Shown: piece by piece, positions 17,386 to 39,765 of the stretch | How positions within the stretch are numbered: the stretch's first letter is position 1 | How the letters are laid out: every line of letters begins with the position of its first letter | NCBI GenBank assembly: GCA_035635555.1 | Contig: DASQAT010000057.1 | Location: 1-39,765, forward strand | DNA length: 39,765 nt | DNA from: Candidatus Dormiibacterota bacterium | Lineage (GTDB): Bacteria; Acidobacteriota; Polarisedimenticolia; Gp22-AA2 | Direction: 5' to 3' | Notes under the pieces: model-generated | The model's database searches: none | What the model was told of the DNA's origin: nothing | What the model saw: only the letters and a program-made list of their open reading frames with translations | Made by a program: the position numbers and the translations under genes

Positions 17386-17780
17386 GATTGAGCCCCCGGG
17401 ATTGTTCCATCTGTGACGGCGTGGGTGGCGATTTGCCAGGTGTTGCCCCATTCATCCTGCACCATGCCGCGACGATCGCCATAGGGCGTGTCAGTTGGCT
17501 CTTCGAGGGCACGAGCGCCGGCCCGGAGGGCCCGCCGATAGGTTCCCTCGACGTCGTCGACATAGACGTAGAGGAAGGCGGGCATCGGGTCGCGGGTCCC
17601 GGCCTCGCTGACCATGACGATCGAGTCACCGATCGTGATCACGGCGGGTCGATCGGGCCGATAGTCTCCCGTTGCCCCGAACACCTGCTTGAGGAATTCG
17701 ACGAGCCGTTCCGCACCCTCCACGACGATTCTTGGAGTCACGGTATGCCAGCCTTCAGGGGTGAAGCGGGAGTTGCTCAC
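17382..17780 (-). CDS. VOC/glyoxalase-superfamily protein (PhnB-like)
   Basis: 132 aa. It opens with WHTVTPRIVVEGAERLVEFL and FGATGDYR, continues with AVITIGDSIVMVSEAG, and ends with YGDRRGMVQDEWGNTWQIATH, the pattern of PhnB/3-demethylubiquinone-like VOC proteins. The fold supports metal-dependent chemistry or antibiotic binding; the substrate is unknown. The GTG start (17780) overlaps the stop of the disrupted gene upstream. Confidence 0.85.
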   Translation of the reverse strand: MSNSRFTPEGWHTVTPRIVVEGAERLVEFLKQVFGATGDYRPDRPAVITIGDSIVMVSEAGTRDPMPAFLYVYVDDVEGTYRRALRAGARALEEPTDTPYGDRRGMVQDEWGNTWQIATHAVTDGTIPGAQS

Positions 17781-21354: not shown

Positions 21355-21404
21355 GTCACACCGGCTCGGACTTATGGGTGAGGCGGGGCATCGTCACGTG
21401 TGCG

Positions 21405-22406
21405 TCAGTCTCGTGCTGAATACCAGTCCAACACTCGTAAGGCGCGGAGGGTGTTCCACCGGCTCGGCCGGCCCTCGCCCTCGTCCGTCTCGAACAACAT
21501 CTTGCCGGGGTACCGGGTCTCGAGCGGCCACCTGCCGTCGTCGTCGCGCTTCGACGCCACCAGGTCGATCGCCTCGGCTGCGCGCTCGTCGGGCGCGACG
21601 CCGGCGCGGCGCAGGTACTCGAGCCCCCGCAGCACGTCGTAATGCCACCACGTCGGGAAGGCGAAGCGCGTCCACGCGGTGTCGCCCTTGCGATCTCGCT
21701 CGATCACTTCGCCGGTCGACCTCCGGCGGAAGAGTCGGCGCTCGAGGAGGTACTCCTGTCCACGGAGAGAGGCCCGGGTCACCTCTGGGCTGCCCCCGAC
21801 GGCCCGTTCGTATTCGAGCAGGGCTTCGAGCACGCAGATCGTGGTGTTGAACGACGACCGCGTCGAGCCGCTGGCGGCCTCGCAGTTCCAGCCGCCGTCG
21901 GGCAGCTCCTCGGCGAGCAGCCGGTCGACGATGCCCAGGACGTCCTGGCCGAAGTAGGCGCCGCCCGCCCCGACCTGCCCGTTGATGCAGGGCTCGACCT
22001 CGCCGGCGAAGAAGGGGTTGTCGTCCGCTTCCCGAGGACCGCATCCTTGCCACGTCACACGGTCGCGGACGAGGCCCACCGCGCGCCGTGCCTCGTCGCT
22101 GGCGGGATCGAGACCCATCTCCTTCAGGAGTAACAGGACGTGCATCGTGGAATCCCACCCGCGGTTCCACGCGGCGCCGCCCCACCGCCCGTCCGGCGCC
22201 TGGAGGGCGAGCAGCCGCGCGCCCGCGCCCTCGCTCGCGACCCTTGCACGCTCGGCCCCGACTTCGTCCGCGGGCGCATCAGTCAGGTCGCGCATCACCT
22301 GCCAGCGGATCGAAGGATCGGAATCAAGCAGCCAGCGTATGACCGAGCTCTGTGACGTCGAGACTTTCCGTTTGGCTGGATGAGTCGCCATCTTGTCAGA
22401 CGCCAT
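21405..22406 (-). CDS. prenyltransferase/squalene-cyclase repeat-like protein
   Basis: 333 aa. An alpha/alpha-toroid pattern is visible with repeated QAPDGRWGG, LPDGGWNCEAASGSTRSSFN and KRDDDGRWPLETR, resembling the squalene-hopene cyclase/prenyltransferase superfamily. The catalytic DxDD motif of cyclases is not seen, so it is probably not a triterpene cyclase. ATG 22406 overlaps the upstream stop; ATG 22391 or a later start is possible because the first 20 residues look non-conserved. Confidence 0.75.
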   Translation of the reverse strand: MASDKMATHPAKRKVSTSQSSVIRWLLDSDPSIRWQVMRDLTDAPADEVGAERARVASEGAGARLLALQAPDGRWGGAAWNRGWDSTMHVLLLLKEMGLDPASDEARRAVGLVRDRVTWQGCGPREADDNPFFAGEVEPCINGQVGAGGAYFGQDVLGIVDRLLAEELPDGGWNCEAASGSTRSSFNTTICVLEALLEYERAVGGSPEVTRASLRGQEYLLERRLFRRRSTGEVIERDRKGDTAWTRFAFPTWWHYDVLRGLEYLRRAGVAPDERAAEAIDLVASKRDDDGRWPLETRYPGKMLFETDEGEGRPSRWNTLRALRVLDWYSARD

Positions 22407-25355: not shown

Positions 25356-26908
25356 CTACTTCTCGAACAGCTCCTGCGCCTTGACGATCAGCAGGCGCTC
25401 CCGGTTCAGGGGGAGACGGAACGACTCGATCTCCTTGTCCTCCTTGAGGAGCGCCTCGCTCGTGGTCGGGGTCTGGTAGGTGATCGGCGTCGGCTTTCCG
25501 GACAGGAGCGTCTCCTTCAGGGCCGCGGCGTTCTCGGTGACGATGGCGACCGCCAGGTTCGCCGCCTGCAGATGGCGCTTGACGGCGGCGTTGACGTCCT
25601 CGAGCTTCAGACGCGCCAGCTCCTCCTGGACCCGGTCGATGAAGAACTTCGTGCCGTAGAACTCCGAGTCCAGCTGGTAGCCGAGCCGGCGGCTCTGGTC
25701 CTGCGCCCACAGACGCGAGTAGTTCAGGAGGTACTTGCGGGTCGCCTCGAAGTCCTGCGCGCTGAGGCCGCGGTCCACGAGCATCTTCAGCTCGCGCGTC
25801 GCCTGACGCAGCGCGAACAGGGCATTGACGGGCGGAACCGGGCGGATCCAGATGCTGAAGAACTGCTGCCGGCGCGGGATGTTCGTGAGCGGGAAGGTGC
25901 TGCCGCCGTCCTGGATGAAGTTCTCGGTGTACGAGTAGTCTCCGTAGTTGAGACCGCGATCGCCGCGCATCTTGTTCATCAGCCGGCCGTTGAAGGTGCG
26001 GTGCTCGCCGAGGTACGAATTCGCCACCAGAAGAGCGTAGAAGTCCTTGTCGGCGCGCGTCACGCCGATCGGGAAACCGATCGAGATCGCCGTCGCCGGG
26101 GCGGGCTTCTCGACCAGGGTCACCTCCATGCCCGAGAGCGGCTTCGGCTTCGGAAGCGCCACGAGTGGCGGCGCCCCCTGGGGCAGAGTGGCGAAGTCCG
26201 TCTTCAGCGACTCGATCATGCCGTCGGGATATCCGCCCGCGACTCCCAGGACGACGTTCCCCTGCGTGTAGAACTTCCGATAGTGCGCCTTCAGGTCGTC
26301 GAGCGTGATCGACTTGAGCCCCTGCACCGTGCCGATGTCGAGGTTTCTGTACGGGTGCCCCCGGTACATCGTCCAGTCGAGGGTCGCCTTCCCCAGCCCT
26401 TCGTCTTCGTTGCCTCGCAGGTTGGTCTCGATGGCGGCCACCAGGTCGTCGCGGCTGCGCTTGAAGTCGCTCTCGTCGAAGCGCGGGCGCAGCAGCACCG
26501 ACGTGAGAAGGTCGTAATACGCCTTCGCGTGGTCGCGGTGCACGCTGCCGATGAAGGTGGTGACCTCCTTGTCCGCCATGGCGTCGATGGTCGCGGCCAT
26601 GGGGTACAGGCGCTCGGTCACTTCCTTGTAGGTCAGGTCCTTCGTCCCCCCCTGGGCGATGGTCATCGCCGTGAGGACGTTCAGCCCTTCCTTTCCCGCC
26701 GGGTCGTTGATCGCCCCGCAGCGGAACTGGATGCGGAACGCGATGAGAGGCGAAGAGGGACTCGGCAGGAGACTCGTCCTGAGCGGCGAGCCGGCGGCCG
26801 GATTCGAGATCGGCTTCATCGTCTTCTTCTCCTTCGAGTCCGCCGCCCCCGCAGGGAGGACGCCGAGAAGCGCGGCGAGGGGGACGGCGAGCGGCACCAG
26901 GCGCCGCC

Positions 26909-26912
<4 letters not shown>
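25356..26912 (-). CDS. M16-family peptidase homologue lacking the zinc motif (regulatory subunit)
   Basis: 518 aa with a signal peptide (VPLAVPLAALLGVLPAGAA). It has the two-lobed M16 fold, with IAFRIQFRCGAINDPAGKEG and GLNYGDYSYTENFI, but the HxxEH site is replaced (TIAQGGTKDLTYKEV), so it should be catalytically inactive. Such subunits pair with an active M16 partner in the periplasm or outer membrane. The ATG overlaps the TGA of the catalytic gene upstream (ATGA), as expected for a heterodimer. Confidence 0.9.
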
Positions 26913-28318
<1,406 letters not shown>

Positions 28319-28362
28319 TCGGGGTTCTCCTTCACGCGTGGCGTGGGGATCTTAGCACACGC

Positions 28363-29214
28363 TCAGCGGGCCGCCCGGCGCGCGATCCCGATCACGTTCG
28401 GCACCGGCCAGGCGCGGCGATTCTCGTCGCCGCCGACCCACTCGCGCTCGAGCCCCCCGCTGTTTACGTACAGCTGCGCCTCGGGCCCCCCCTCGACGTA
28501 CATGGCGCGCGCGAGACCCAGCGGCAGCTCCAGCAGGATGTCGATCAGATCGTGCGTGCTGTAGGGCGAGCGCGCGTGGATGAACAGGATGCGCCCGCGC
28601 CCGTCCCGGCCGATCGCCGCCGTGCTCCAGCGCTGCGGCTGCTGCGTCCAGACGTTCGTCCCCCGGCAGGAGATCATCCGGATGCTCTGCACGAGGGTGC
28701 CGTACTTGCCCCTCAGGGTCTCGAAGTCGTCGCAGTCCCGGTCGATGAGCGAGACGGACGGCACCGAGGCGTCGAGGCGATCGAAGGCCAGGATGGTGCG
28801 ATCCTTCGACAGGCGCGGGTTGTTGACGTGTGTCGTCGTCTTCATCAGCGACACGCTGGTGCGGTGGTCGGTCTGGTACATGCTGGCGTTGATGGCCGCC
28901 ACCAGGCCGCCGCGCACACACCAGTCCCTCGCGGTCAGCGCCCGCTCCTGATCCGGGGCGGACGCGTTCATGAGACGGAGGTCGAAACGATTCGGATCGA
29001 CGCGCAGGACCCTCACGATCGAGTCGCCGCGCTCGGAGGGGTGCGTGGCCGGGAACTCTCCCAGATCGAGACCCGGCTCGAGCGGGTTCCAGGCCTGGGC
29101 CGGCTGCTTCTTCTGCTCGGCGGCACCCGGCGGCGACGGGCGCTCCGCGGGCACGCCGGCGACGGCGACGGTCATCATGAGACCGGCCGCGGCCGCTCCC
29201 GCGATCCGTCTCAG
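28363..29214 (-). CDS. secreted phosphodiester glycosidase-domain protein (NAGPA-like)
   Basis: 283 aa if translation starts at CTG 29214. The mature region has [20 protein letters not shown] and ends with [18 protein letters not shown], the NAGPA/exopolysaccharide phosphodiester glycosidase pattern, which removes sugar-1-phosphodiester caps. ATG 29178 would leave only half a signal peptide without a basic start and has no ribosome-binding site. CTG 29214 gives [20 protein letters not shown], a full signal peptide, with GGAGG nearby, and overlaps the RidA TGA (CTGA). The start is the least certain part. Confidence 0.8.
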
Positions 29215-29624
29215 GACCCCTCCTCCGCCCGGCGGCCGCGCACGATCGCCTCCGCTTCGATCTCGACCAGCATCTCCTCCGAGATCAGCCGGCGCACCTC
29301 GACCATGCTCGTGGCCGGGCGCACCGATCCGAAGACCTCGCGGTGGGCCCGGCCGATCGCCTCCCAGTCGTCCATGCGGACGACGTAGATACGCGTGCGC
29401 ACGACATCGTCCAGGCGCGCCCCGGTCCGCCGCAGGGCCGACTCGATGTTCCGCAGCGTCTGCGCCGCCTGCGCGTACGCGTCCCCCGGGCCCACGATCC
29501 GTCCTTCGGCGTCGGTGGCGGTCGTGCCCGAAACGTGCACGTGCCGCCCGACACGGACGGCGCGCGAGTAGCCGACCAGCGGCTCCCAGCGCGTCCCGCT
29601 CGACACTCTGATTCGCTCCGTCAT
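29211..29624 (-). CDS. RidA/YjgF-family protein
   Basis: 137 aa. Family marks are [35 protein letters not shown] and the arginine in [18 protein letters not shown], then [12 protein letters not shown]. RidA hydrolyses reactive 2-aminoacrylate-type enamines. The ATG overlaps the cupin TGA (ATGA). Its place in the same broad neighbourhood as an OCD-type enzyme is suggestive of amino/imino acid chemistry, but that gene is on the other strand. Confidence 0.9.
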
Positions 29625-29986
29625 TCGGCGGCTCGCTTCGCGTAGGCGTCGGCGCCCAGAAGGTGCAGCGACACGTACGCCTCGTCCCCCACCACCCAGG
29701 AATCGTGCCCCGGGGGGATGGCGAACAGGTCTCCGGGCTTCAGCAGGACCTCCTCTCCATCGTCCATGACGACCATCGCCCGGCCCGACACGACGAGCCC
29801 GACGTGCTCGACCCGGCACGAGGAGGTCTTCGCGATCGGCTTTACGTGCACCGACCACTTCCAGCCCGGTTCGTAGGCGGCGCGGCCGACGGTCAGTCCG
29901 CCGATCGTCACCAAGTCGAATCGTCCTTTCTCGAAGTCGCGGCCGTCGTCCGCCTTCTCGAAACGTCTGATCGTAATCTGCGCCAT
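29621..29986 (-). CDS. small cupin protein
   Basis: 121 aa with a single cupin fold. [20 protein letters not shown] and [20 protein letters not shown] form the two motifs, and one HxH-type metal pair is reduced (CRVEH). It probably binds a small ligand or metal. It lies 6 bases after the SnoaL-like gene and overlaps RidA. Confidence 0.85.
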
Positions 29987-29992
29987 CGGCCG

Positions 29993-30490
29993 TCAGTCCT
30001 GGCCGTCGCCCAGGACGTCCCCCATCGGGAAGTGCAGGCTGTCGTGCTCGTGCAGGACTTTCCATTTTCCCGACGATTTCTCGAGGACCAGAGTCATCGC
30101 GCCCCGCAGCTGCGCCTGGTTGTCGCCTGCCGCGAGGTCGACGCTCATGGACGCGACGACCAGGACGTAGCCGGGGCCCAGCGGGGTGATGTCCATCGTC
30201 CCGAGCGACACCGTGTGCGTTCCTTGCGTCCCGGCGAGCTTGTCGAGCTCGGCGCGGATCGAATCCCAGCCGCGATTGATGGACCCCATCTCGGCCATGG
30301 ACACTTCCGGCTTCCGGCTCACCATGTCCAGGATGGCGGTCGGGTCGGCCCCGTTGTTGGCGTCGATGTAGGCCCGCACGAACCGCTGGATCTCTTCCCG
30401 CGTGGCCGGCCCGCTGTCCGCGGCTCGCACGGCCGCCACGGCGCCGATGACGACGGCCATCAGGATCAGGACGTTCCCTGCGCGTGCCAT
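29993..30490 (-). CDS. secreted SnoaL/NTF2-like protein
   Basis: 165 aa with a signal peptide ([18 protein letters not shown]). The body has [40 protein letters not shown] and a final [14 protein letters not shown], typical of SnoaL-like domains that lack an assigned enzyme activity. GGGAGAG precedes the ATG. It resembles the copy at 19567 only in fold. Confidence 0.8.
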
Positions 30491-30515
30491 GATTGCGCTC
30501 TCCCTGCGCCGTTCC

Positions 30516-31259
30516 TCAGGCGCGTTTCGGGTGATCGAAGGATCCCTCCCGCAGGAACTTCAGGGTCTGCTGTATCACTCCACGACTCTTCATGATGAAG
30601 GCGTGCGTGCGCGGGACGACCAGGAAGTCGGTCATTCCCCCGATCCTGGCCCTCTCTACGCCCACGAACCCGTCGTCCGGCCCGCGAATCAGCGCGGAGA
30701 AGATCGGGTTGATGCTCCGTCTGCCCGTGATCACGCCCAGCTCGAACGCGACCGGACCGAGGCGGGCCGGCAGGCCGTCGGGATCCGTCCCGATCCGCGG
30801 GCGGTTCGGCCCCGCGACCCTGCGGGCCAGCGGGATCTTCCGCAGCAGGTCGGCGAGCTCGCTCCCGCCGTTCGGAGGGCTGAGCATCACGACCCTTCCC
30901 ACGTTCGGCAGCGGATGCTCCTTCAGGTAATAGCGAACCAGGATCCCGCCGAACGAATGGGTCACGAAATGCACCCGCCGGTCCCCGGTCGGCTTGTGCT
31001 CCGTCAGCCGCGCATCCAGGTCGCCGGACAGGTCTTCGATCCTCCTTCGCCCCGCGCTATACCCGATGTTGACGACTTCGTAGCCGTCCCGCGCGAGCGC
31101 CGTCTCGAGCTTCTTCATCGAGCGCGGCGAGCGGCTCAGACCATGGAGCAGCACGACGATGTCCCGCTCAGGCACGGATGCCTCCGCGGCCCGGGCCCGC
31201 GCCAAGCCGAGCCCCCCCAGGGTCGCGAGCAGGACGAGGACCCGGAGCGCCCGCCGCAC
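30516..31259 (-). CDS. secreted alpha/beta-hydrolase lipase
   Basis: 247 aa with a signal peptide ending near ARA-AE. The oxyanion region IVVLLHGLSRSPRSM and nucleophile elbow THSFGG (Ser102) are typical of PGAP1/LipA-like lipases; a histidine near the C-terminus (PRTHAFIM) is the likely third triad residue. It probably hydrolyses esters in the periplasm or outside the cell. The GTG start 31259 follows the DUF4242 stop by 6 bases. Confidence 0.85.
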   Translation of the reverse strand: MRRALRVLVLLATLGGLGLARARAAEASVPERDIVVLLHGLSRSPRSMKKLETALARDGYEVVNIGYSAGRRRIEDLSGDLDARLTEHKPTGDRRVHFVTHSFGGILVRYYLKEHPLPNVGRVVMLSPPNGGSELADLLRKIPLARRVAGPNRPRIGTDPDGLPARLGPVAFELGVITGRRSINPIFSALIRGPDDGFVGVERARIGGMTDFLVVPRTHAFIMKSRGVIQQTLKFLREGSFDHPKRA

Positions 31260-31265
31260 GCCGGC

Positions 31266-31538
31266 TCAGTCCGCCGTCGTCGGGTCGATCACCGTCCGGA
31301 TCCGCGAGATGCGGTTCGCGGGAAAGCCCCCCTTCTGGGCGTGCTTGCGGACGGCCTCCTCGTTCGGCGCGATATACACGCAGTAGACCCGGTCGTCCGT
31401 CACGTAGCTCTGAACCCACTGGATCTGCGGCCCCATCTCCCGCAGCACGCCGCAGGACTTCTGGGAGATCGCCTGCAGCTCCGGCGCGGTCAGCTTTCCG
31501 GCGCCGGGAATGTCCCTCTCGATCACGTATTTGGGCAT
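31266..31538 (-). CDS. DUF4242 (SCO4226-like) protein
   Basis: 90 aa. MPKYVIERDIPGAGKLT opens the ferredoxin-like fold, followed by VQSYVTDDRVYCVYIAPNEE and the closing ISRIRTVIDP. The SCO4226 family binds nickel in one studied member. ATG 31538 has AGGAGGAGG just upstream, inside the 3' end of the preceding gene, which it overlaps by 16 bases. Confidence 0.85.
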   Translation of the reverse strand: MPKYVIERDIPGAGKLTAPELQAISQKSCGVLREMGPQIQWVQSYVTDDRVYCVYIAPNEEAVRKHAQKGGFPANRISRIRTVIDPTTAD

Positions 31539-32143
31539 GCTCCTCCTCCTCCTTTTGTGGTGTACCAGTCGAGCGCATCGTCCATCCGGTCGTTGCCCCA
31601 GAACAGCTCCCCTCCGACCACGCACGTCGGAGCGCCGAAGATCCCCAGGTCCCAGGCCGTCTCGGTCTCGCGACGGAGCCGCTCCTTGTTCTCGGCCGAA
31701 ATCGCCAGCCCGATCACGCGGGCGCCCTGCTGGCCGATCGTCCCCAGAATTTCTTCAATGACCGTCGCGTCCGAGACGTCGCGGTCGTACGCGAAGTTCG
31801 CCCGGTAGACGCCGCGCACGAACCCGGGCAGCCAGCCCTGGCCCGCCCCGGCGCACGCCACCCGTGCGGCCAGGACGGAGTTCCTGGGGAACACAGTCGG
31901 CTTCTTGAAAGGCAGACCATGCTTGCCGCAGAGCCGCTCGACGTCGCGCCACATGTAGCGGCCCCTCGCGGGGTACAGGTTGAACGGCGAGTCGTTCCAT
32001 CCCTGGCGCCGGAAGATCGGCCCGAGCAGGAACGGCTTCCACTCGAACGGCACGCCCCGGGAGCCGGCGACCGCCTCGATCCGCAGCGCGGCGACGTACG
32101 AGTAGGTGCTCGCGAACTCGAACCAGAATTGAACCGGTGCCAC
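31523..32143 (-). CDS. 2-hydroxychromene-2-carboxylate isomerase-family (DsbA-like) protein
   Basis: 206 aa. A thioredoxin/GST-kappa fold opens with VQFWFEFASTYSYVAALRIE, with the catalytic serine region in place of CxxC. RRQGWNDSPFNLYPARGRYM and the late DLGIFGAPTCVVGGELFWGN are family marks. Members isomerise naphthalene-degradation intermediates using glutathione, but many have other roles. GTG 32143 is chosen because AGGGAG sits six bases ahead; the GTG at 32173, overlapping the cupin stop, is the alternative. Confidence 0.85.
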   Translation of the reverse strand: MAPVQFWFEFASTYSYVAALRIEAVAGSRGVPFEWKPFLLGPIFRRQGWNDSPFNLYPARGRYMWRDVERLCGKHGLPFKKPTVFPRNSVLAARVACAGAGQGWLPGFVRGVYRANFAYDRDVSDATVIEEILGTIGQQGARVIGLAISAENKERLRRETETAWDLGIFGAPTCVVGGELFWGNDRMDDALDWYTTKGGGGACPNT

Positions 32144-32169
32144 GACACTCTCCCTCAACCCGGGCTCGT

Positions 32170-32568
32170 TCACTCCGGTCGAGCCAGCTCTTCGCTCTCG
32201 CTCCCCAGCGACCAGAGCGACAGCAGCTCGCTCGTGTCGAAGGCGGGGGCAGCCGCGCTGAAATACCGCAGGACCACCTGCCCTTCGTTCCGGATGCCGT
32301 GGGGGGTGTCCGCGGGGACGAAGACGCAGTCACCTGTGCCCACCGTCTGCGTCTCGGTCCCGACGGTCATGAGACCGCCCCCTTCGAGGATGAAATACAC
32401 CTGCTCGGGCGGATGACTGTGGACCCGCTGCTCGCCCCCCGGCTCGATCTGGACCAGCGTCGTGGTCAGGTGGTGGGCCTGGGAGGTCCGGGGTGAAGCG
32501 AGCAGGTACGAGGTGATCCCTTCCGGCCTGCAGTAGCGCGGGGCCTTGGCCTTCGTCAGAATCTGCAT
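32170..32568 (-). CDS. cupin-domain protein
   Basis: 132 aa. The first motif is RVHSHPPEQVYFILEGGG and the second is GDCVFVPADTPHGIRN. The histidines and glutamate for a metal site are present (H50, H52, E55, H91 region). Function is unknown, as with most small cupins. ATG 32568 follows GGAGGAAGAGG. Confidence 0.88.
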   Translation of the reverse strand: MQILTKAKAPRYCRPEGITSYLLASPRTSQAHHLTTTLVQIEPGGEQRVHSHPPEQVYFILEGGGLMTVGTETQTVGTGDCVFVPADTPHGIRNEGQVVLRYFSAAAPAFDTSELLSLWSLGSESEELARPE

Positions 32569-33083
32569 TGTCCTCTTCCTCCATCACGATTCTCCTCACG
32601 TCCAGGCCGGGTCGTGCCAGGCGAGCGCGGCAGCCCGCCGCCCAGGAGGCCCATCGCAAAGACGAACGCGCTGCCGCCAATGATGCCGCACAACATGTCC
32701 CCGAGCGTGTCCGACAGTCCCAGTTGCGTCTTCGTCCCACAATAATGGTCCGACAGGTATTCGGCAAACTCCCAGAACACCGCCGCGGCGCAGGTGAGAC
32801 CGAACACGACGACTCCGATGCCGGTCCGGTTGATCCCGCCGATGACCCCGGCCTCCGACGCAAGAACGCCGGCCCGCCAGAAGAAAAAGGCGATGGCGAG
32901 TCCGCCCAGAAGGTGCATGACAATGTCGGCGGTCGGGTGGGCCACGTAGAGGCGGAGCATCCGGGACAGCAGGATGTGGAAGACGAAGACCGCGGCGGGA
33001 GCCCACCCGGCCTCGAACAGGGCGCCTGTCGACCAGTGCCGGTGGATTCCCAAGACCTCGATCTCCCGCGGTCTCCTAGGCAC
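32556..33083 (-). CDS. membrane protein resembling the DUF2238/VanZ-like group
   Basis: 175 aa with about four hydrophobic helices. It has MHLLGGLAIAFFFW and later WEFAEYLSDHYCGTKTQLGL and SDTLGDMLCGIIGG, which recall DUF2238-like membrane proteins. The GTG at 33083 overlaps the upstream stop by 8 bases; other starts are possible. The C-terminus is basic. Function is unknown. Confidence 0.65.
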   Translation of the reverse strand: MPRRPREIEVLGIHRHWSTGALFEAGWAPAAVFVFHILLSRMLRLYVAHPTADIVMHLLGGLAIAFFFWRAGVLASEAGVIGGINRTGIGVVVFGLTCAAAVFWEFAEYLSDHYCGTKTQLGLSDTLGDMLCGIIGGSAFVFAMGLLGGGLPRSPGTTRPGREENRDGGRGQCRF

Positions 33084-33546
33084 GCCGCTCGAACTTTGGC
33101 CCTGACACTTTGAGCAACAACCCGGCACCGACCTTCGACACGGCCGCCTCGACGCTCAGTCGCTTCGAGCGGGCAAGGACGTCCTTCGGTACCCAACGCG
33201 GAAACGGCGTCACCACCGTCCGATGATGGCCTCGCGCCGTGTGTTCCTCGCGGATGGCCGCCAGCCCGCCTTTGGGCAAGCGGCTCGCGAGACGCACCAG
33301 CGCCGGCCACAGCCGCCGATGCACGAACGTCACCTTGCCACCCGCTAGCCGACACACCAGCACCTGCTCCGAGTCGCGCACCGCGTCGAACACCTGATAC
33401 ATGTGACGTGACATCGGATGGCCCCACCAGCTGCCCCGGACAGGCTCGCCGGCAATCGCTTCCACCAGGCTCGGGACGGCGCCGCGGGCCGCCATGAGCA
33501 CGACGCCGTGCTTCTTGACGAAGGTCAAAGCGTCCCGCCCGGTCAC
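33076..33546 (-). CDS. conserved hypothetical protein (DNA-glycosylase-associated type)
   Basis: 156 aa, soluble. FVKKHGVVLMAARGAVPSLV, GEPVRGSWWGHP and KVTFVHRRLWPALVRLA form a recognisable conserved pattern seen in uncharacterised, sometimes AlkZ-associated, proteins. That link is from memory and not secure. The GTG start is 33546. It is followed by the membrane gene with an 8-base overlap. Confidence 0.6.
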   Translation of the reverse strand: MTGRDALTFVKKHGVVLMAARGAVPSLVEAIAGEPVRGSWWGHPMSRHMYQVFDAVRDSEQVLVCRLAGGKVTFVHRRLWPALVRLASRLPKGGLAAIREEHTARGHHRTVVTPFPRWVPKDVLARSKRLSVEAAVSKVGAGLLLKVSGPKFERRA

Positions 33547-33638
33547 CGCGGACCGCCCTTCTCAGCGCTGATTCTCGCTCTGAATCGTCGATCGTCCCCG
33601 AGTATAACCCTGCGCCCTGACTCTGTTGCGGCGGGTTG
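33547..33638 (-). other. 92-base gap after VanY with a possible degenerate recombination site
   Basis: The gap between the VanY stop and the gene at 33546 starts with GGCTGAC overlapping the VanY stop (33644-33638). It contains GAGTCAGGGCG and GGTTATAC further on. No gene or terminator is visible. See the cassette-boundary findings. Confidence 0.3.
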
Positions 33639-33650
33639 TCAGCCGGCTTC
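33635..33650 (-). repeat. shared 3'-end box, VanY copy
   Basis: The plus-strand 16-mer GTTGTCAGCCGGCTTC covers the last Ala-Gly codons and TGA of VanY. It matches GTTGTTAGCCGGCTCC at the end of the carbonic anhydrase gene (37956-37971) at 14 of 16 positions, although the proteins are unrelated. Confidence 0.45.
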
Positions 33651-34181
33651 TTCCAGCACGGCCCAGTGCCATGGCTCGTACGCTATTCCAAACCGATTTC
33701 CGCGCGGATACGTCATGGCGAAACCGAAGCGATGCGCGTGCCGGACGAGCCAGGCGAATGCCACGGTCGTCTCGAACTCCTCGGTGAGCGGCGGGCAGCC
33801 TGGCGTCGCGAGGTCGACGGCTCTGCCCGTGTGGTGCTCGCTGTAGCCCGGAGGCGTGTTCACCTTCAAAATGCCCTCGAGTGACTCGCCGGCTCTGATC
33901 TTCCGCTCGAAAATCTGCCGCTGGTATTCCAGGCTCCTGAAGGCCGAGACGAGCAGCAGCGCGACGCCATCCTGCTGCGCCGCGGCCCGGAGCCCGCTCC
34001 ACCGGCCGGCGGCGTGGGGCGCTAGCTGCCGGTCCCGTCCGTAGATGTCCACGCCGACCGACACGAGGTTCTTGGCCTCGGCATAAGACGGCATGTGTCT
34101 GTCCACGCCGTAGGAAGCAGGGATCCCCAGGTCCGCCAAGGTCCGCGCCACGCGCGCGTCGTAAGGTTCGTCGGTCCTCAC
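33639..34181 (-). CDS. VanY-type D-Ala-D-Ala carboxypeptidase (M15B)
   Basis: 180 aa. LLLVSAFRSLEYQRQIFERK, YSEHHTGRAVDL (zinc ligands H116 and D123) and the C-terminal EPWHWAVLE are the M15B signature. It trims peptidoglycan stem peptides. No signal peptide or anchor is present, which is unusual for an envelope enzyme, so it may be a shortened cassette-type gene. The GTG start overlaps the upstream TGA (GTGA). Confidence 0.88.
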   Translation of the reverse strand: MRTDEPYDARVARTLADLGIPASYGVDRHMPSYAEAKNLVSVGVDIYGRDRQLAPHAAGRWSGLRAAAQQDGVALLLVSAFRSLEYQRQIFERKIRAGESLEGILKVNTPPGYSEHHTGRAVDLATPGCPPLTEEFETTVAFAWLVRHAHRFGFAMTYPRGNRFGIAYEPWHWAVLEEAG

Positions 34182-34648
34182 TCGCTGACCCTATTCAGCC
34201 GGAGCCAGCTCACCAGAGCCGCAGCAAGGACTCCGGGCGTAAGCACCTGGTGAACCAGCCTGAAGCGAAGCACATCGACCGATCGGTCGGAGAGGCGGCC
34301 AAGATAACCGGTGTTCGATGCCGCCACTGTCGCCCCCAGGGCCAGGACCAGCGCACCGACGTGCAGCGCTCTCGACCAGTCTCGAGACCGCACCCCCTCC
34401 GCAACTCCGACACCGATCGCGAAAGGGATGAGCACCCACGCTGCGCCCCCGAGAAAATGCGCCAGAAACCGGTGCGGGCCCGCGCTTCGCACCGTGAGCC
34501 CCGTCACGAACAACATGACCCACAACGAAAGCAACAACAGCACCGCCACCCTGGCGGCCTGGATCGAACGGGCCTCGAACTCGAGATGAGCCCAGGCGCC
34601 GAGAGCGAACAGGACCGCCATGAGCAGGAGTCTGAGGAGATCACCCAT
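34178..34648 (-). CDS. multi-pass membrane protein of unknown function
   Basis: 156 aa with about five hydrophobic helices, such as LLLMAVLFALGAWAHLEF and VAVLLLLSLWVMLFVTGL. No family is recognised. It overlaps the DUF4386-like gene by 8 bases and VanY by 4, so the three are probably translated together. Confidence 0.65.
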   Translation of the reverse strand: MGDLLRLLLMAVLFALGAWAHLEFEARSIQAARVAVLLLLSLWVMLFVTGLTVRSAGPHRFLAHFLGGAAWVLIPFAIGVGVAEGVRSRDWSRALHVGALVLALGATVAASNTGYLGRLSDRSVDVLRFRLVHQVLTPGVLAAALVSWLRLNRVSE

Positions 34649-35345
34649 GGCTTGCCCGCTCTTCCCACCGTGCCACGTTCACGCCCTTCACAAGCAGCCA
34701 GAGGCACAGTGACAATTCCCCAATAAAGGCAGGAACCAGAATGGCGGGGAACAACGCATTCGCGACCTTGGGGGCCAGAAGCAGCGCAAAACTGTTCGTC
34801 AGATAGCACACCCCGGCAATCTGCATCAAAACGCCTAGAATCTTTGGCAGATAGCCCGATCTCGCAATCAAGTATCCAAGAACAATGCACTCACAACCAA
34901 AGAATATCAACCCGATGCCAAAACCGTATCCATCCGACTTGACAGACAGGTACGCCAGAGCATGTCGCTGGTGTGGTTCGAATGCGTTCAGATAATCCGC
35001 GCTTCCCAACAGGAACAAAGCCACCAGGAGAGCCAACTTGTTGGCGACCATGACAGCGCTCTGTATCAAATTGAACAACACCGCAAGCAACGCCAGATAT
35101 TTGTGTACCGGTCTGAGCAAGACATAGAAAATCAGCATCAACGGCACATCACACACGTGCATGACAAGGTCGCCGACTATTCCTATGCGCCAGAGCAACT
35201 GAGAAGCCACAATATTATTGGCCGTGGCTGTAGCATCGCCTGACACGATGAGTCTGTCTCTGAGTCGCGACTCCTCGGGAAATCGCTCGTAATACGACAT
35301 GACCTCCGGAGGAGGCTTCGGATCCCGGTCCCTCTTCGCGATCAT
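34641..35345 (-). CDS. DUF4386-like membrane protein with atypical N-terminus
   Basis: 234 aa. From RLIVSGDATATANNIVASQL onward it follows the DUF4386 pattern, with about five membrane helices. The usual first helix before this point is missing and replaced by a hydrophilic segment (PPPEVMSYYERFPEESRLR). The local base composition is unusually AT-rich: 26 of 60 bases are G or C in 34861-34920 by hand count, far below the rest of the window. This supports recent transfer. AAGGAG lies 11 bases before the ATG. Confidence 0.75.
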   Translation of the reverse strand: MIAKRDRDPKPPPEVMSYYERFPEESRLRDRLIVSGDATATANNIVASQLLWRIGIVGDLVMHVCDVPLMLIFYVLLRPVHKYLALLAVLFNLIQSAVMVANKLALLVALFLLGSADYLNAFEPHQRHALAYLSVKSDGYGFGIGLIFFGCECIVLGYLIARSGYLPKILGVLMQIAGVCYLTNSFALLLAPKVANALFPAILVPAFIGELSLCLWLLVKGVNVARWEERASHG

Positions 35346-35361
35346 TCGCGCTCAGTCTCCT

Positions 35362-35387
35362 TTCGGATGCACGCGGTAGTCAACCGA
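35362..35387 (-). repeat. weak 3'-end box at the SRPBCC-peroxiredoxin stop
   Basis: The minus strand reads GGTTGACTACCGCGTGCATC across the TGA. It resembles GCCTGACAAACGCATGCAGC at the VOC end, allowing a one-base gap. The downstream leader of the DUF4386 gene contains CTGAGCGCGA, also present upstream of the VOC gene. Weak on its own. Confidence 0.25.
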
Positions 35388-36396
35388 CACGTGCGCGGAG
35401 CCAGGCAGTCACTGCGGGCGCATCGGCGGTGGACGGGAATACGGGGTAGATCACGTGCACAATTCGTGACCCCTCCAGAATCAGGCTCAGGCGCTTGAGG
35501 AGAGTCCAGTCTCCGTACCGGAAAGTCGGGAGTCGCAGGGCATGGGTGAGCTCGAGGCGGGCATCGCTCAGGATCGGGTAGGGCAGGTGGAGCCGCTCAG
35601 CCATCTCCCGCTGATACTCGGTTGACTGAGTACTGAGACCGTAGACGGTCGCTCCCAGGCGTTGGAGGTCCGCGTAGTGATCACGAAAGGCACAGTTTTG
35701 AGGCGTACAGCCCCGGGCGCCCGGAATCTCGTCCCAGCCTGGCGGCGAGTCCTGGGTCGGGACCCCGGTGCGCGGGTACGCATAGACCACCGACCACCTC
35801 GTCGGAGAAGCGCCCAGACGGACGGAGCGGCCGTCGGTGCTCGGCAGATCGAGCGGCGGGACCTCGAGACCCGGCAAATGGCCGCAGGCCCCGTCGTCCG
35901 TCGGTGCGGGAAGGTCGGCCGGAAGCGAGTAGAGGTCGTCCGAGCGCCGCTCCATGTAGGACTTGAGCGCCTCGAGCCTCTGTCGCACCTCGCGCAGGAA
36001 GAGAACCGAGGCGATTGGGCCTGCAAGCGCCCGAAGCCAGCGGGGCCTGGTGGAGAAATTGAACCGGTACGTTACGCGGGTCAGTCCAGACCCGACGTCC
36101 TCCTGACGGAGGCTGGCGGCGAAGGACTCGAGTACGGCCGGTCCCTTCGTCATTTTCACCGCAGCGACGACCGGCCGATCGAAGGATAGGTAGATTGTCT
36201 CCATGGCAAGGCCCCCGAACCCGTTTCGAGCGGTGCATCGAGCCTTGACCCCGGGGCCGGCCGCTTCCGCTCCCTCCAGAAGACAGGCCTCCTTCAGAAA
36301 GGGATCCCACTCCAGCCGTCGCGCGTAATCGTGAATGAGATCGAAAACCGCCTCCGGCCTCGCGCGAATCTCGATCGCGGCCTCGACAGTCCTCAT
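35380..36396 (-). CDS. SRPBCC (START-like) domain fused to a BCP/PrxQ-type peroxiredoxin
   Basis: 338 aa in one frame. Residues 1-150 are a SRPBCC/polyketide-cyclase domain (AAIEIRARPEAVFDLIHDYA, WDPFLKEACLLEG) that should bind a hydrophobic ligand. After a linker, residues 175-338 are a thioredoxin-fold peroxiredoxin: LPGLEVPPLDLPSTDGRSV, VYAYPRTGVPTQDSPPG and GARGCTPQNCAFRD. C230 and C235 are spaced like the peroxidatic and resolving cysteines of BCP/PrxQ. An attractive but unproven role is detoxifying lipid hydroperoxides held by the SRPBCC pocket. ATG 36396 follows a G-rich site; codons upstream look like leader. Confidence 0.88.
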   Translation of the reverse strand: MRTVEAAIEIRARPEAVFDLIHDYARRLEWDPFLKEACLLEGAEAAGPGVKARCTARNGFGGLAMETIYLSFDRPVVAAVKMTKGPAVLESFAASLRQEDVGSGLTRVTYRFNFSTRPRWLRALAGPIASVLFLREVRQRLEALKSYMERRSDDLYSLPADLPAPTDDGACGHLPGLEVPPLDLPSTDGRSVRLGASPTRWSVVYAYPRTGVPTQDSPPGWDEIPGARGCTPQNCAFRDHYADLQRLGATVYGLSTQSTEYQREMAERLHLPYPILSDARLELTHALRLPTFRYGDWTLLKRLSLILEGSRIVHVIYPVFPSTADAPAVTAWLRARVG

Positions 36397-36434
36397 TGCT
36401 AATCGCCCCCCAAAGCCGCCACCCGCGCCTCGAC

Positions 36435-36884
36435 CTATAGGACCCGCTCGAACACGCGAATGCCCGACCACTTCTGATCGTTCTTGGACCAGAGGGGTTT
36501 GAGAACCAAGCGGTCGCCCGTAAGCTCGAACGGTCGCTCTTCGTCGCGGCCGATGAAGAGGCCGTACAGGTCGCCCTCGGCATGGTGAACCACGATCCCC
36601 CTGGCGGCATCGACGCGGTAGGTGCCAAAGTACGCCGCGTAGGCATCAAGGAGCGCTTCCTTCTCCTGAGGCGTCACTCGGTACGGATCGCCCGAGGCCA
36701 CCTTGGGATGCGGCTGCTTCATGATCTGAATCGCCATGTGCCCGGTCGCGTCGTAAACAAGAAACCCTTTCGGCTCGGTGCCATACGGAAAGACTGCGGG
36801 ACCTGAGGCCGGCCTGTCCTCGTACGAGACAAGCCTCCAGGAACCAACAAGCCCCTGTGGAGCATCGCGTGCGTTCTCCCTCAT
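36435..36884 (-). CDS. lipocalin-like domain protein
   Basis: 149 aa. It begins LVGSWRLVSYEDRPASG and contains FLVYDATGHMAIQIMKQ and YFGTYRVDAARGIVVHH, the lipocalin_5 pattern. No signal peptide is present. Ligand unknown. GGGAGG lies six bases before ATG 36884. This ATG overlaps the true stop of the frameshifted membrane gene upstream (ATGA). Confidence 0.85.
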   Translation of the reverse strand: MRENARDAPQGLVGSWRLVSYEDRPASGPAVFPYGTEPKGFLVYDATGHMAIQIMKQPHPKVASGDPYRVTPQEKEALLDAYAAYFGTYRVDAARGIVVHHAEGDLYGLFIGRDEERPFELTGDRLVLKPLWSKNDQKWSGIRVFERVL

Positions 36885-37295
36885 TGAGAGCCTCCCGTCC
36901 GCCCACCAGGTAACGGAGGTGGGTATTGCATGGCTGACCTGCTGCTCTTTGCCAGGACGACAGCCAACAGAACAATATCGATCATGAGACTGAATACAAT
37001 GAGGGCCCCATCTTCAGAAGACTCACCGACGCACCATCGCAACACTGAGACATGCCAGCCAGGTCCCGAACCATGCCGGCGCGTTGACCGTTACACTATC
37101 GACAAGGCTAGTCATGAGCTGCTGCATCGCGTCCGTCACCGGCGAGCGGGCACCGCGATCGATCGACTGGGAGAGCATGCGCGACTGCGCCACGATAAGC
37201 TGAGGCAGGTAATAAGTCTGGATGGCACCCAGGATACCTAGACTCCCCAGGATGATGCCCGATACGCCGACCGAGGTGACCCAACGAGGTCTCAT
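36881..37295 (-). pseudogene. frameshifted small membrane protein gene
   Basis: From ATG 37295 the frame encodes two hydrophobic segments (VTSVGVSGIILGSLGILGA and WFGTWLACLSVAM) and stops at 37023. Shifting by one base just before that stop opens ESSEDGALIVFSLMIDIVLL, a third membrane segment. That frame ends at 36881 with TGA overlapping the lipocalin ATG (ATGA), as is typical of this run. The intact protein would be about 137 aa. One base has been gained or lost near 37025, or the sequence contains an error. No slippery motif is seen. The 90-residue product may still be made. Confidence 0.55.
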
Positions 37296-37310
37296 GAATT
37301 CAGCCCCCGG

Positions 37311-37925
37311 CTACCCTGCTGCGCGCCTCAGCGGTCGCACCGTGACGGCGCCAAGGATCAGACCAGCGAGAAGCACGAACGCGACGACTCCCCGCGGCGA
37401 GACCACGCCACCCAACAGCGTGTCAACCGCCAGCGAGCTCAATGGGAAGCCCAGGCCGAGCGCGAAAATTGTCGCAGAGGCCCAACCATGGACCCGGACC
37501 GCGCTGCGCCGCAAAACCAAGGATTGCGTCATGCCCAACAAGAGCCCGCTGATAGTGCCCACGACGGCAAAGCTCAAAGCCCTCCCGAGAACTCCAACGC
37601 GCGCGACGTTCATTGCATGCCCTGTCAGGACGCGCCCACCCTGCTCCACCACGACCACTCCCAGCGCCAGACCAGCACCCAGCCCAACGCAGCTTGCGAC
37701 TACCCACTGGTACGGCCGAGCCACCAGGGACCGCATGTGGTGCAACTGGCTGAGACCGAGAATGCCACCGACTAGACAGGTCACAGCCGGCGTAACGAGC
37801 ATCATGCCAACGACAGCTGCGATGGGCCCCCCGAGGATGAGGCCCGCAACCATACCGGCCCCCAGGCCCACGGCCGTTATCAGCGTCCAGCCGAGCCCAA
37901 AGCGTTTGCTCTTCGAGTCCGCCAT
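37311..37925 (-). CDS. polytopic membrane protein of unknown function
   Basis: 204 aa with about six glycine-rich membrane helices in three similar pairs, such as VGLGAGMVAGLILGGPIAAV and VGLGAGLALGVVVVE. The repeated VGLGAG suggests internal duplication. No family is recognised. The ATG follows GGGAGG. It lies 34 bases after the carbonic anhydrase stop. Confidence 0.7.
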   Translation of the reverse strand: MADSKSKRFGLGWTLITAVGLGAGMVAGLILGGPIAAVVGMMLVTPAVTCLVGGILGLSQLHHMRSLVARPYQWVVASCVGLGAGLALGVVVVEQGGRVLTGHAMNVARVGVLGRALSFAVVGTISGLLLGMTQSLVLRRSAVRVHGWASATIFALGLGFPLSSLAVDTLLGGVVSPRGVVAFVLLAGLILGAVTVRPLRRAAG

Positions 37926-37955
37926 GATTGCCTCCCGTCACACGTTGAGTATGGC

Positions 37956-37971
37956 GTTGTTAGCCGGCTCC
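37956..37971 (-). repeat. shared 3'-end box, carbonic anhydrase copy
   Basis: Plus-strand GTTGTTAGCCGGCTCC spans the last Ala-Gly codons and TAA of the carbonic anhydrase gene, so the minus strand reads GGCTAACAACGCC. It is the partner of 33635-33650. It resembles the R'' end of integron attC sites, in which the cassette gene stop codon often lies. Confidence 0.45.
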
Positions 37972-38589
37972 GGGTACACCGTCGAAAAAGTCAACGACTC
38001 CAGTGTTCAGCGAATACTCGGCTCCCACGACGAGGAGCCCATCCTTCTGGATGGACTGCTCAAGGACTTCCGATCCATGTCGCAGATGGTCGGCCGAGAC
38101 GCGGATGTTGGCCCGAACGGCCTTCCGCACGAGAGCATCCGCCTGATCCCGGAATTCCTCCATCAACAACGCTTCCACGGATGGCCGGATACGGTCAACG
38201 ATCGACCGGAGGTTCCGTGACTGGCCCTCCGAGGGACGCCCAAGCTCCTCGATGGTTGCCAGAACAGCCCCACACTCGGTGTGACCCAGGACCACAACGA
38301 GCCGAGTGCCGAAACGCTCCGCGGCGAACTCGACGCTCCCGATTTGAGAAGGGGCGACGATGTTCCCGGCGACACGGATGACAAACAAGTCACCAAGTCC
38401 TTGATCGAAGACGATCTCCGCCGGCACCCGCGAATCGGAACATCCGAGAATGATGGCAAACGGCTCCTGGCCTGCCGCCAGCTCGCGGCGACGCGTCTGG
38501 CCAGTGAGTGTGTCACGGCGACGAACGTCCATCACAAATCGGCGGTTCCCCTCGCGCAAGCGTTCGAGGGCTTCTTGGGCAGCGATCAT
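37960..38589 (-). CDS. beta-class carbonic anhydrase
   Basis: 209 aa. Zinc ligands are visible in CSDSR (C50, with D52 and R54 as the catalytic dyad) and HTECGA (H103, C106). The family loop RVAGNIVAPSQIGSVEFAAE is intact. It interconverts CO2 and bicarbonate in the cytoplasm. There is no transporter or signal peptide. Its 5' leader is shared with the VOC gene, and its 3' end is shared with VanY. Confidence 0.95.
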   Translation of the reverse strand: MIAAQEALERLREGNRRFVMDVRRRDTLTGQTRRRELAAGQEPFAIILGCSDSRVPAEIVFDQGLGDLFVIRVAGNIVAPSQIGSVEFAAERFGTRLVVVLGHTECGAVLATIEELGRPSEGQSRNLRSIVDRIRPSVEALLMEEFRDQADALVRKAVRANIRVSADHLRHGSEVLEQSIQKDGLLVVGAEYSLNTGVVDFFDGVPGAG

Positions 38590-38608
38590 CGACGTTTCAT
38601 CCTCGTCC

Positions 38609-38665
38609 GCCTGACGCCCCGGGTAAGCTGCAGCACGGCGCGCGCGACAACGCCGCCATCAGAGC
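38609..38665 (-). repeat. attC-like boundary between DUF1697 and carbonic anhydrase genes
   Basis: 57 bases. The minus strand starts near the DUF1697 stop with GCTCTGAT and ends with GTCAGGC (complement GCCTGAC, 38609-38615), 19 bases before the carbonic anhydrase ATG. A palindromic GCTGCAGC lies inside. The end boxes pair imperfectly. Orientation, size and position are as expected for an attC site, but the match is degenerate. Confidence 0.35.
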
Positions 38666-39189
38666 CCTCCGTTACCCACCACCCTGGCGATCGTGGTGAT
38701 GGTATTCCAGTTGCGCGTGGTAACCGGGACCCCAAAGAGCCGGTCGAACTTGCCGAGGTGGCCGATAGCCTTCATCTGGCGTCGGTAAACGCCGAAGACA
38801 AACCGGTTGTCCGCCGCGAGGATCTTCACCAGCCACCTGCCGCTGGAAGGAAAGCTTATGGGCGTCGATGGCATCGAGCGGGGGCGTTTGGACAGGATGC
38901 TCACGAAACGAACGATATCGGGTCGCAGGGCCTGGTCCGCGAAATGATTCTGAGACGTCAGCCTGACAATCTCGCGACCGTGGCAGATCATGATCTCCGC
39001 CTCAAAGGGAAGCCTGCGTGCCATTTCGGCGCGGAGTTTCGCCCGGGTGACTGGCCGCCGGATCACGAAGGTGCCCGCCGCGCCGATGTTGACAACATCG
39101 AGGTGCTTGAGTCGTTCGGCCAGTGTCGAGGGTCGGAATGTCCTGTGACCGCCGACGTTGACTCCTCTCAGAAGAACCACGAGTGCCAC
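38659..39189 (-). CDS. DUF1697 family protein
   Basis: 176 aa. It opens with VVLLRGVNVGGHRTFRPSTL, the family signature, followed by DVVNIGAAGTFVIRRPVTRA and a C-terminal TTRNWNTITTIARVVG, also characteristic. Function is unknown. GTG 39189 is chosen since GGAGGG lies just upstream and residues before it are translated intergenic sequence. Confidence 0.88.
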   Translation of the reverse strand: MALVVLLRGVNVGGHRTFRPSTLAERLKHLDVVNIGAAGTFVIRRPVTRAKLRAEMARRLPFEAEIMICHGREIVRLTSQNHFADQALRPDIVRFVSILSKRPRSMPSTPISFPSSGRWLVKILAADNRFVFGVYRRQMKAIGHLGKFDRLFGVPVTTRNWNTITTIARVVGNGGL

Positions 39190-39210
39190 GCGTTCCCTCC
39201 TCGTCGCGCC

Positions 39211-39280
39211 GCCTGGCGGCAAATTTGCGCAAGCAAATGTGATTCGAGTCCGGTGGGTCGGCTGCATGCGTTTGTCAGGC
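39211..39280 (-). repeat. attC-like 70-base site between VOC and DUF1697 genes
   Basis: The minus strand starts with GCCTGAC (39280-39274), which contains the VOC stop codon, and continues AAACGCATGCAGCC. It ends with GCCAGGC (39217-39211), which pairs with the first box at six of seven bases. Between them is a perfect stem ATTTGC-loop-GCAAAT (39223-39238), like the variable hairpin of integron attC sites. The length is inside the attC range. The inner L boxes are not clear, so the site may be degenerate. Confidence 0.45.
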
Positions 39281-39691
39281 CGGCACCGCGTGGCCCCTTG
39301 ACTCGAACGAAGAGAGCTCACTAATCGTGACGTAGTATCCGTCCGGATCCCGGAGCGAGAACTCCTTTGTCCGAGTATTCGGGTTCGCGTGCGGCTCCTC
39401 TTCGAGTCGACCGACGAGAGCGCGCGCCCTTTTCAGTGACATATCGAAATCGTCGACGCGAAAGAACAAGAGGAGCCCGTTGCCAGGTGTTGCCTCGTCC
39501 CGGCTCATCAAGGACGGATGTTCGTGCGCTCCCCACTCGTGGAGGCAGAGCAAAACAGTTCCGTCCGAATCGAGGATCTGACTGAAATAGGGATGGTCCG
39601 GTCGTTTCTCGGGCTGGCCGAAGAGCGACTGGTACCATTTGAAGCTACTCGGCACATCGCTTACGCCGATGATCGTCCAGGTGCGCTTCAT
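39275..39691 (-). CDS. VOC/glyoxalase-superfamily protein
   Basis: 138 aa. TIIGVSDVPSSFKWYQSLFG and LLLFFRVDDFDMSLKRARAL, then FSLRDPDGYYVTISEL, form the paired beta-alpha-beta VOC modules. A histidine pair near HEWGAHEHPS may bind metal. The family includes lyases, dioxygenases and fosfomycin/bleomycin-resistance proteins; none is specifically indicated. It is bounded by GTCAGGC upstream and GCCTGAC downstream, like a mobile cassette. Confidence 0.88.
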   Translation of the reverse strand: MKRTWTIIGVSDVPSSFKWYQSLFGQPEKRPDHPYFSQILDSDGTVLLCLHEWGAHEHPSLMSRDEATPGNGLLLFFRVDDFDMSLKRARALVGRLEEEPHANPNTRTKEFSLRDPDGYYVTISELSSFESRGHAVPA

Positions 39692-39708
39692 GACGTCTTC
39701 TCCCGTCG

Positions 39709-39740
39709 GCCTGACGGTCGCGCTCAGCGGCGCGGCGGAG
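39709..39740 (-). repeat. attC-like right half upstream of the VOC gene
   Basis: The minus strand reads GCCGCTGAGCGCGACC and then GTCAGGC (39715-39709), 17 bases before the VOC ATG. The order resembles the L'-R' end of attC sites (CTGAxGCGCGAC then GTTAGGC in many cassettes). The box is the exact complement of the GCCTGAC at the gene's other end. Confidence 0.35.
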
Positions 39741-39742
39741 TC

Positions 39743-39765
39743 CTACAAGGCAAGGCGCATCTCGT
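39743..39765 (-). CDS. 3' end of a further minus-strand gene (partial)
   Basis: The last bases read EMRLAL and then TAG (39745-39743) on the minus strand, co-directional with the VOC gene. Too short to identify; another frame is possible. Confidence 0.25.

Follow-up and report, generated by a model that had tools for sequence, protein, structure and literature searches.

How does a single gene of a soil bacterium come to encode an SRPBCC ligand-binding domain followed by a peroxiredoxin? This question is raised by a locus on contig DASQAT010000057.1 of a Candidatus Dormiibacterota bacterium (assembly GCA_035635555.1), which was analyzed over a stretch of 39,765 nucleotides, referred to as the window. 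A preliminary description had placed the gene in one frame at positions 35380-36396 and had assigned to it a START/polyketide-cyclase-like domain and a BCP/PrxQ domain containing the cysteines C230 and C235 in the sequence GCTPQNC. These assignments were borne out, in the case of the second domain as PrxQ-like. The gene is located on the minus strand, with an ATG start codon at 36396 and the stop codon at 35380-35382, and its 338 codons are not interrupted by an internal stop. In Pfam searches, Polyketide_cyc2 (PF10604) was identified at residues 1-149 with 64.6 bits (cut-off 27.4), Redoxin at residues 178-326 with 48.9 bits (cut-off 26.6), and AhpC-TSA at residues 228-290 with 49.5 bits (cut-off 26). 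Since both domains far exceed their cut-offs within one unbroken frame, chance is excluded for the two-domain gene. The type II toxin family Rv0910 was also considered for the SRPBCC half and was ruled out (12.4 bits, cut-off 100).

An AlphaFold2 model of the fused protein, calculated from 48 aligned rows, consists of two domains with a mean pLDDT of 92.8; their relative orientation was not informed by paired rows, no relative being fused, and the pTM is 0.69. Model residues 1-156 were superimposed on tetracenomycin aromatase/cyclase (3tvq; Z 19.6, rmsd 2.3, 148 aligned residues), and residues 172-338 on Mycobacterium tuberculosis BcpB (5epf; Z 20.9, rmsd 2.1, 151 aligned residues). The N-terminal half thus combines the Polyketide_cyc2 profile with a helix-grip fold, and the C-terminal half the AhpC-TSA/Redoxin domain with the PrxQ/BCP fold. 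In the model, a single helix (residues 119-156) extends from the SRPBCC domain and lies between both domains. The two cysteines of the motif RGCTPQNC are five residues apart, at a helix modeled for residues 230-239. An internal start at M147 may give rise to an additional free peroxiredoxin.

The linear motif PxxxTxxC is typical of PrxQ/BCP peroxiredoxins. It is absent from the peroxiredoxin of the window, which has E at position -7 and A at position -3 from C230 and a YPxT sequence in front of an insertion; therefore, the domain is called PrxQ-like and was not filed as PrxQ. A widespread PrxQ-like subfamily was noticed in which YPxT and GCT are separated by an additional stretch of about 16 residues, so that the usual PxxxTxxC is broken, and the members that were tried scored below every NCBIfam cut-off.

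The combination of the two domains had been described beforehand as one not known as a standard architecture, and the domain-architecture search agreed, giving a full-length match solely in the genome of the window itself (G000) across all genome sets searched. The fusion was identified in 1 of 60 genomes comprising G000 and its relatives, in 1 of 297 of the phylum and in 1 of 41 of the class, and was absent from two other groups (0 of 398 and 0 of 297) and from the 11 genomes behind the named loci; these sets overlap partly, and in the 297 of the phylum, the 398 and the other 297, at most a few candidates per genome were scored. Among GTDB contigs, 12 loci were found, each with one half and none at full length. 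Of the plasmid records, 70 matched, but in none did a single place cover 80% of the query, and no fusion was found on the viral contigs searched. A literature search, including one on peroxiredoxin domain architecture, retrieved no account of an SRPBCC-peroxiredoxin fusion, as judged by the titles listed.

Among the loci compared, 22 contain an SRPBCC relative and 47 a peroxiredoxin relative, counts that include duplicates of the same place, and both are present only at the locus of the window. Matches to both halves were absent from each of the 11 genomes behind the named loci, and an unfused neighboring pair was not identified in any genome searched. Because no other locus examined holds both halves, nothing points to a functional partnership that has been conserved.

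The separate halves are found in related genomes. In the same-genus genomes G001 and G003 (the G003 contig being identical with QHXX01000023.1), the SRPBCC gene stands alone, is 86% identical and ends with MERSR-stop or LERSR-stop; where these free genes stop after ERSR, the protein of the window continues with RSDDLYS. Of the other genomes of the genus, G004 contains an SRPBCC relative of 42% identity and G002 (75% complete) none. A metagenome-assembled genome titled Ignavibacteriales (L045, JACPSI010000047.1) was noticed to contain an SRPBCC gene with 80% identity to that of the acidobacteria, which may be due to transfer or to wrong binning. In G026 (68% identity, same class) and G006 (56%, same family), and also in Pseudomonadota, the peroxiredoxin has a gene of its own, encoding about 185-200 residues; plasmids from Agrobacterium, Streptomyces and haloarchaea also gave matches to this half.

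At the junction, the sequence of the SRPBCC gene in G001 and G003 is GAGCGCTCACGATGA, and the G026 gene starts with ATGCGCTCGGACGAC. DNA homology swaps partner between bases 35948 and 35947, with positions 35948-36399 being homologous to G001, G003 and JACPSI010000047 and positions 35435-35947 to the G026 peroxiredoxin gene. Nearly the whole of both coding regions is retained, the loss amounting to about two terminal SRPBCC codons and the peroxiredoxin start codon. Six bases, GCGCTC, are common to both parents near the junction. The features of the locus are listed in Table 1.

Table 1. Features of the fused gene and its surroundings, in positions of the window
Feature	Positions	Strand	Remarks
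Fused ORF: SRPBCC/START-like domain, then PrxQ-like peroxiredoxin	35380..36396	-	338 aa
SRPBCC half, residues 1-150	35947..36396	-	85-86% identical to stand-alone gene of same-genus genomes
Peroxiredoxin half, residues 151-338 and stop	35380..35946	-	About 68-70% identical to stand-alone G026 gene
Fusion junction	35937..35960	-	SRPBCC relatives GAGCGCTCACGATGA (stop); window GAGCGGCGCTCGGACGAC; G026 peroxiredoxin ATGCGCTCGGACGAC
C230 codon, presumed peroxidatic cysteine	35707..35709	-	Conserved alignment column
C235 codon, presumed resolving cysteine	35692..35694	-	Sequence and alignment
Lipocalin_5 gene, upstream of fusion	36435..36884	-	
DUF4386 gene, downstream of fusion	34641..35345	-	G+C 0.53 (window 0.66)
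VanY gene	33639..34181	-	In G003, the homologue lies in this array as a cassette with attC L057:13886-13979
attC right-half remnant, before glyoxalase gene	39709..39734	-	17.1 bits; 4/300 shuffled windows
attC left-half remnant, glyoxalase stop codon	39257..39280	-	20.1 bits; 2/300 shuffled windows
attC right-half remnant, before carbonic anhydrase gene	38609..38634	-	24.5 bits; 0/300 shuffled windows
Weak attC left-half-like stretch, VanY stop	33621..33644	-	12.8 bits; 37/300 shuffled windows; suggestive by position only
Chromosomal backbone adjoining array	26364..31125		Collinear with G003 contig C54 beside its array

The setting of the SRPBCC gene was examined in the sister genome G003. There, an intact attC site follows directly after the stop codon of the SRPBCC gene and a second one lies just before the gene, the two sites being L057:16849-16941 (63.6 bits) and L057:16227-16322 (77.0 bits). 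In G003, SRPBCC constitutes an integron gene cassette. In G001, an attC right half (23.5 bits) was identified after the SRPBCC gene. The regions of both genomes contain a series of attC sites, all of which score better on the gene strand with a covariance model; matches to an attC pattern numbered 17 in G001, 8 in G003 and 1 in G000, and 0 with the reversed pattern as control. A bulge-free palindrome scan missed even attC sites visible by eye, and a gap-tolerant scan and the covariance model were used instead. Candidates outside 88-103 bases and identical ones were dropped, 18 sites were kept, and the model was built from 17 of these, one site of 102 bases being left out by hand. In the literature searched, nothing was found on SRPBCC integron gene cassettes, and no peroxiredoxin cassette was among the matches listed, as judged by title.

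The backbone, VanY and SRPBCC are collinear between the window and G003, and therefore the window holds the same array. In the interval between VanY and SRPBCC, G003 contains a gene read by eye as alcohol-dehydrogenase-like, plus a frame of 144 codons, and the window contains the peroxiredoxin half, DUF4386 and a frame of 156 codons. Four attC half sites were identified in position-weight scans of the window, each on the gene strand, and at two of these the TGA of the R'' core is the stop codon of the preceding gene. With the covariance model, no full attC was found in the window, including the fused ORF, and with the filters off the best match in 30000-39765 had an E-value of 0.009 and was located inside the VanY frame. 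Nor did the gap-tolerant scan detect any there; an early attC pattern allowing up to three mismatches matched 3 times in L057, twice in L056 and nowhere in the window, and nhmmer models of the half sites gave matches in the window no better than the best in shuffles. Rfam gave no match, and repeats of the array kind were not present in the window. Beside the fusion, attC-like remnants had been read by eye at first; the best of them, after the stop codon of the fused gene, was reached in 43 of 1000 shuffles and is not significant, and the others were reached in 235 of 1000 and more.

The genome of the window contains six attC sites by the covariance model, all outside the window, and an integron integrase (TIGR02249, 429 bits, cut-off 265) at L096:1441-2469 on contig C13, which reads toward a contig end about 0.3 kb further on. 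The array beyond the integrase seems to be split over several contigs, and we infer that the contig of the window belongs with that of the integrase.

Several observations were made on the surroundings. Across positions 31500-39765, small genes that are unrelated to one another are closely packed on a single strand, much as in an operon (a DsbA-like gene named by eye, VanY, DUF4386, lipocalin, carbonic anhydrase, DUF1697 and glyoxalase). The attC sites of this stretch are mostly eroded; the orthologous G003 array retains them. The very end of G003 contig C54 (L057:17963-18141) has a counterpart of 179 bases in the window (21399-21577) at 95.5% identity, far higher than the roughly 80% of the rest. 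Outside the array, positions 17421-17772 are 83% identical to L057:12417-12768, a gene within the G003 array region.

For the peroxiredoxin, the free gene of G006 (L060:8006-8581) has as its stop codon the TGA inside an attC right half (26.4 bits, 0 of 300 shuffles); this attC is cut down onto the end of the peroxiredoxin ORF. A degenerate attC-like stretch was noticed upstream of this gene, near L060 position 7283. Near the G026 gene, the closest relative of the peroxiredoxin, no attC was found. The peroxiredoxin presumably arrived as a cassette.

The gene is most probably a fused integron cassette, in which two neighboring cassettes were joined in frame on loss of the attC between them. In the lineage of the window, the cassette following SRPBCC would have carried the PrxQ-like peroxiredoxin, and a deletion would have taken the last SRPBCC codons, the attC, the leader of the next cassette and the first two bases of the peroxiredoxin start codon, leaving one in-frame ORF. 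Both domains are intact in one ORF, the halves are free genes in relatives, and the G003 SRPBCC gene lies between two attC sites of the orthologous array; the shared chromosomal place, the integron integrase of the genome and the half sites of the window are further support. The attC between the halves is lost in the window, and G003 has one in the corresponding place. As to the cassette state of the halves with their own attC, SRPBCC has an intact site in G003, and the peroxiredoxin a right half only in G006 and none at G026. The fusion is known from one draft assembly.

It is unlikely that the fusion was produced by an ordinary deletion or rearrangement unrelated to integron cassettes, with the array being merely a neighbor. 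Such an origin would agree with the finding that no significant attC remnant touches the fusion and with the location of the nearest peroxiredoxin relative, that of G026, outside any array. However, attC follows SRPBCC in two same-genus genomes, intact in G003 and as a right half in G001, the fusion sits in the same array as in G003, and the free peroxiredoxin of the same family ends in an attC half, all of which argues against such an origin.

With respect to function, the C-terminal half would by analogy act as a two-cysteine thiol peroxidase, with C230 attacking the peroxide, C235 resolving and a thioredoxin-type reductant completing the cycle. The N-terminal half is a putative binding domain for small hydrophobic ligands, tethered via the long helix; among the window neighbors scanned, no polyketide genes were identified. 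Each half is expected to keep its own activity, without demonstrated cooperation. The columns conserved among 34 aligned free peroxiredoxin relatives are kept in the peroxiredoxin half (34 of 46 were retained in the alignment, 12 duplicate or fragmentary rows being dropped besides that of the window), and in the SRPBCC alignment 13 of 21 rows were retained, 8 being dropped besides that of the window. In the SRPBCC half, the changes unique to G000 relative to G001, G003 and L045 comprise 10 synonymous and 2 non-synonymous ones, a count that also spans the time before the fusion, and pairwise dN/dS is 0.15-0.17 relative to G003 and G001. Judged from these substitutions, the SRPBCC half is under constraint, and the sequence of the fused gene suggests no hint of decay.

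The gene had originally been interpreted as a self-contained lipid hydroperoxide scavenger, and separate genes for the halves in close relatives had been named beforehand as evidence against this; the halves are indeed such free genes, and the interpretation is unsupported. That the fusion was selected as a scavenger, with the SRPBCC pocket presenting a hydrophobic peroxide to C230, appears rather improbable. It is consistent with the conserved residues kept in both domains, the end-to-start, in-frame junction, the purifying selection on the SRPBCC half and the continuous helix leading out of this domain in the model. Against it stand the failure to find the halves fused or adjacent anywhere else in what was searched, including the 11 genomes behind the named loci, and the retention of the SRPBCC gene without the peroxiredoxin in its genus.

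An assembly or base-call error that joined two separate genes only in the draft sequence is highly improbable: the assembly is a single draft of 59 contigs with 2.23% contamination and the contig ends inside the array, but the end of one gene meets the start of the other almost exactly and in frame, the join contains no attC, the repeat at which such arrays would misassemble, and the shared stretch of 6 bases does not suffice for an assembler to merge two sequences, which makes a chimeric contig unlikely.

Integrons have a known role in the shuffling of entire genes. If the gene was formed by the joining of two cassettes, its mode of formation is the interesting part and the enzyme part is ordinary, the product being, as far as its sequence tells, a peroxiredoxin with an added binding domain. 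A clean joining of unrelated domains by attC loss, if true, would let one ask how often arrays create new multidomain proteins, and the value of this case lies in a sister genome in which one partner, at the corresponding chromosomal position, is unfused and still flanked by attC. More tentatively, chromosomal integrons could be domain-shuffling devices, in which erosion of attC leads to overlapping genes and then to one multidomain enzyme; here, a ligand-binding module would have been joined to a peroxidase, which would now act on the ligand of the module or on peroxides of that ligand, a possibility that is rather doubtful.

Compared to known proteins, the SRPBCC half resembles Polyketide_cyc2/START-like proteins such as tetracenomycin ARO/CYC (3tvq) and MSMEG_0129 (5z8o), with the PF10604 match covering residues 1-149 and fold matches of Z 19.4-19.6, but is only 14-16% identical to them. 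The peroxiredoxin half shares with the PrxQ/BCP proteins M. tuberculosis BcpB (5epf) and X. campestris PrxQ the fold (Z 20.9 over 151 residues for 5epf), the GCT motif and the cysteines five residues apart. It differs from canonical PrxQ in that the insertion of its subfamily moves the conserved YPxT away from GCT, and it reaches 47.6 bits with the NCBIfam PrxQ model, whose cut-off is 260.

For the formation of the gene, the closest precedents are fused cassettes of class 1 integrons. When the first attC is lost in part or entirely, neighboring cassettes turn into a single unit, a rare process that has been described, for example, for blaGES-1/aacA4 (PMC4670013). Fused AAC(3)-Ib/AAC(6')-Ib' and AAC(6')-30/AAC(6')-Ib' proteins are named for class 1 integrons of P. 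aeruginosa (PMC3656343), and Acidobacteria are listed among the phyla with an attC model of their own (PMC8352920). The likeness consists in the merging of cassettes on attC loss and in the AAC proteins being described as fused, the same process probably having acted here. The fused class 1 cassettes are resistance genes in Pseudomonas, whereas the locus described here is a chromosomal acidobacterial array with unrelated domains.
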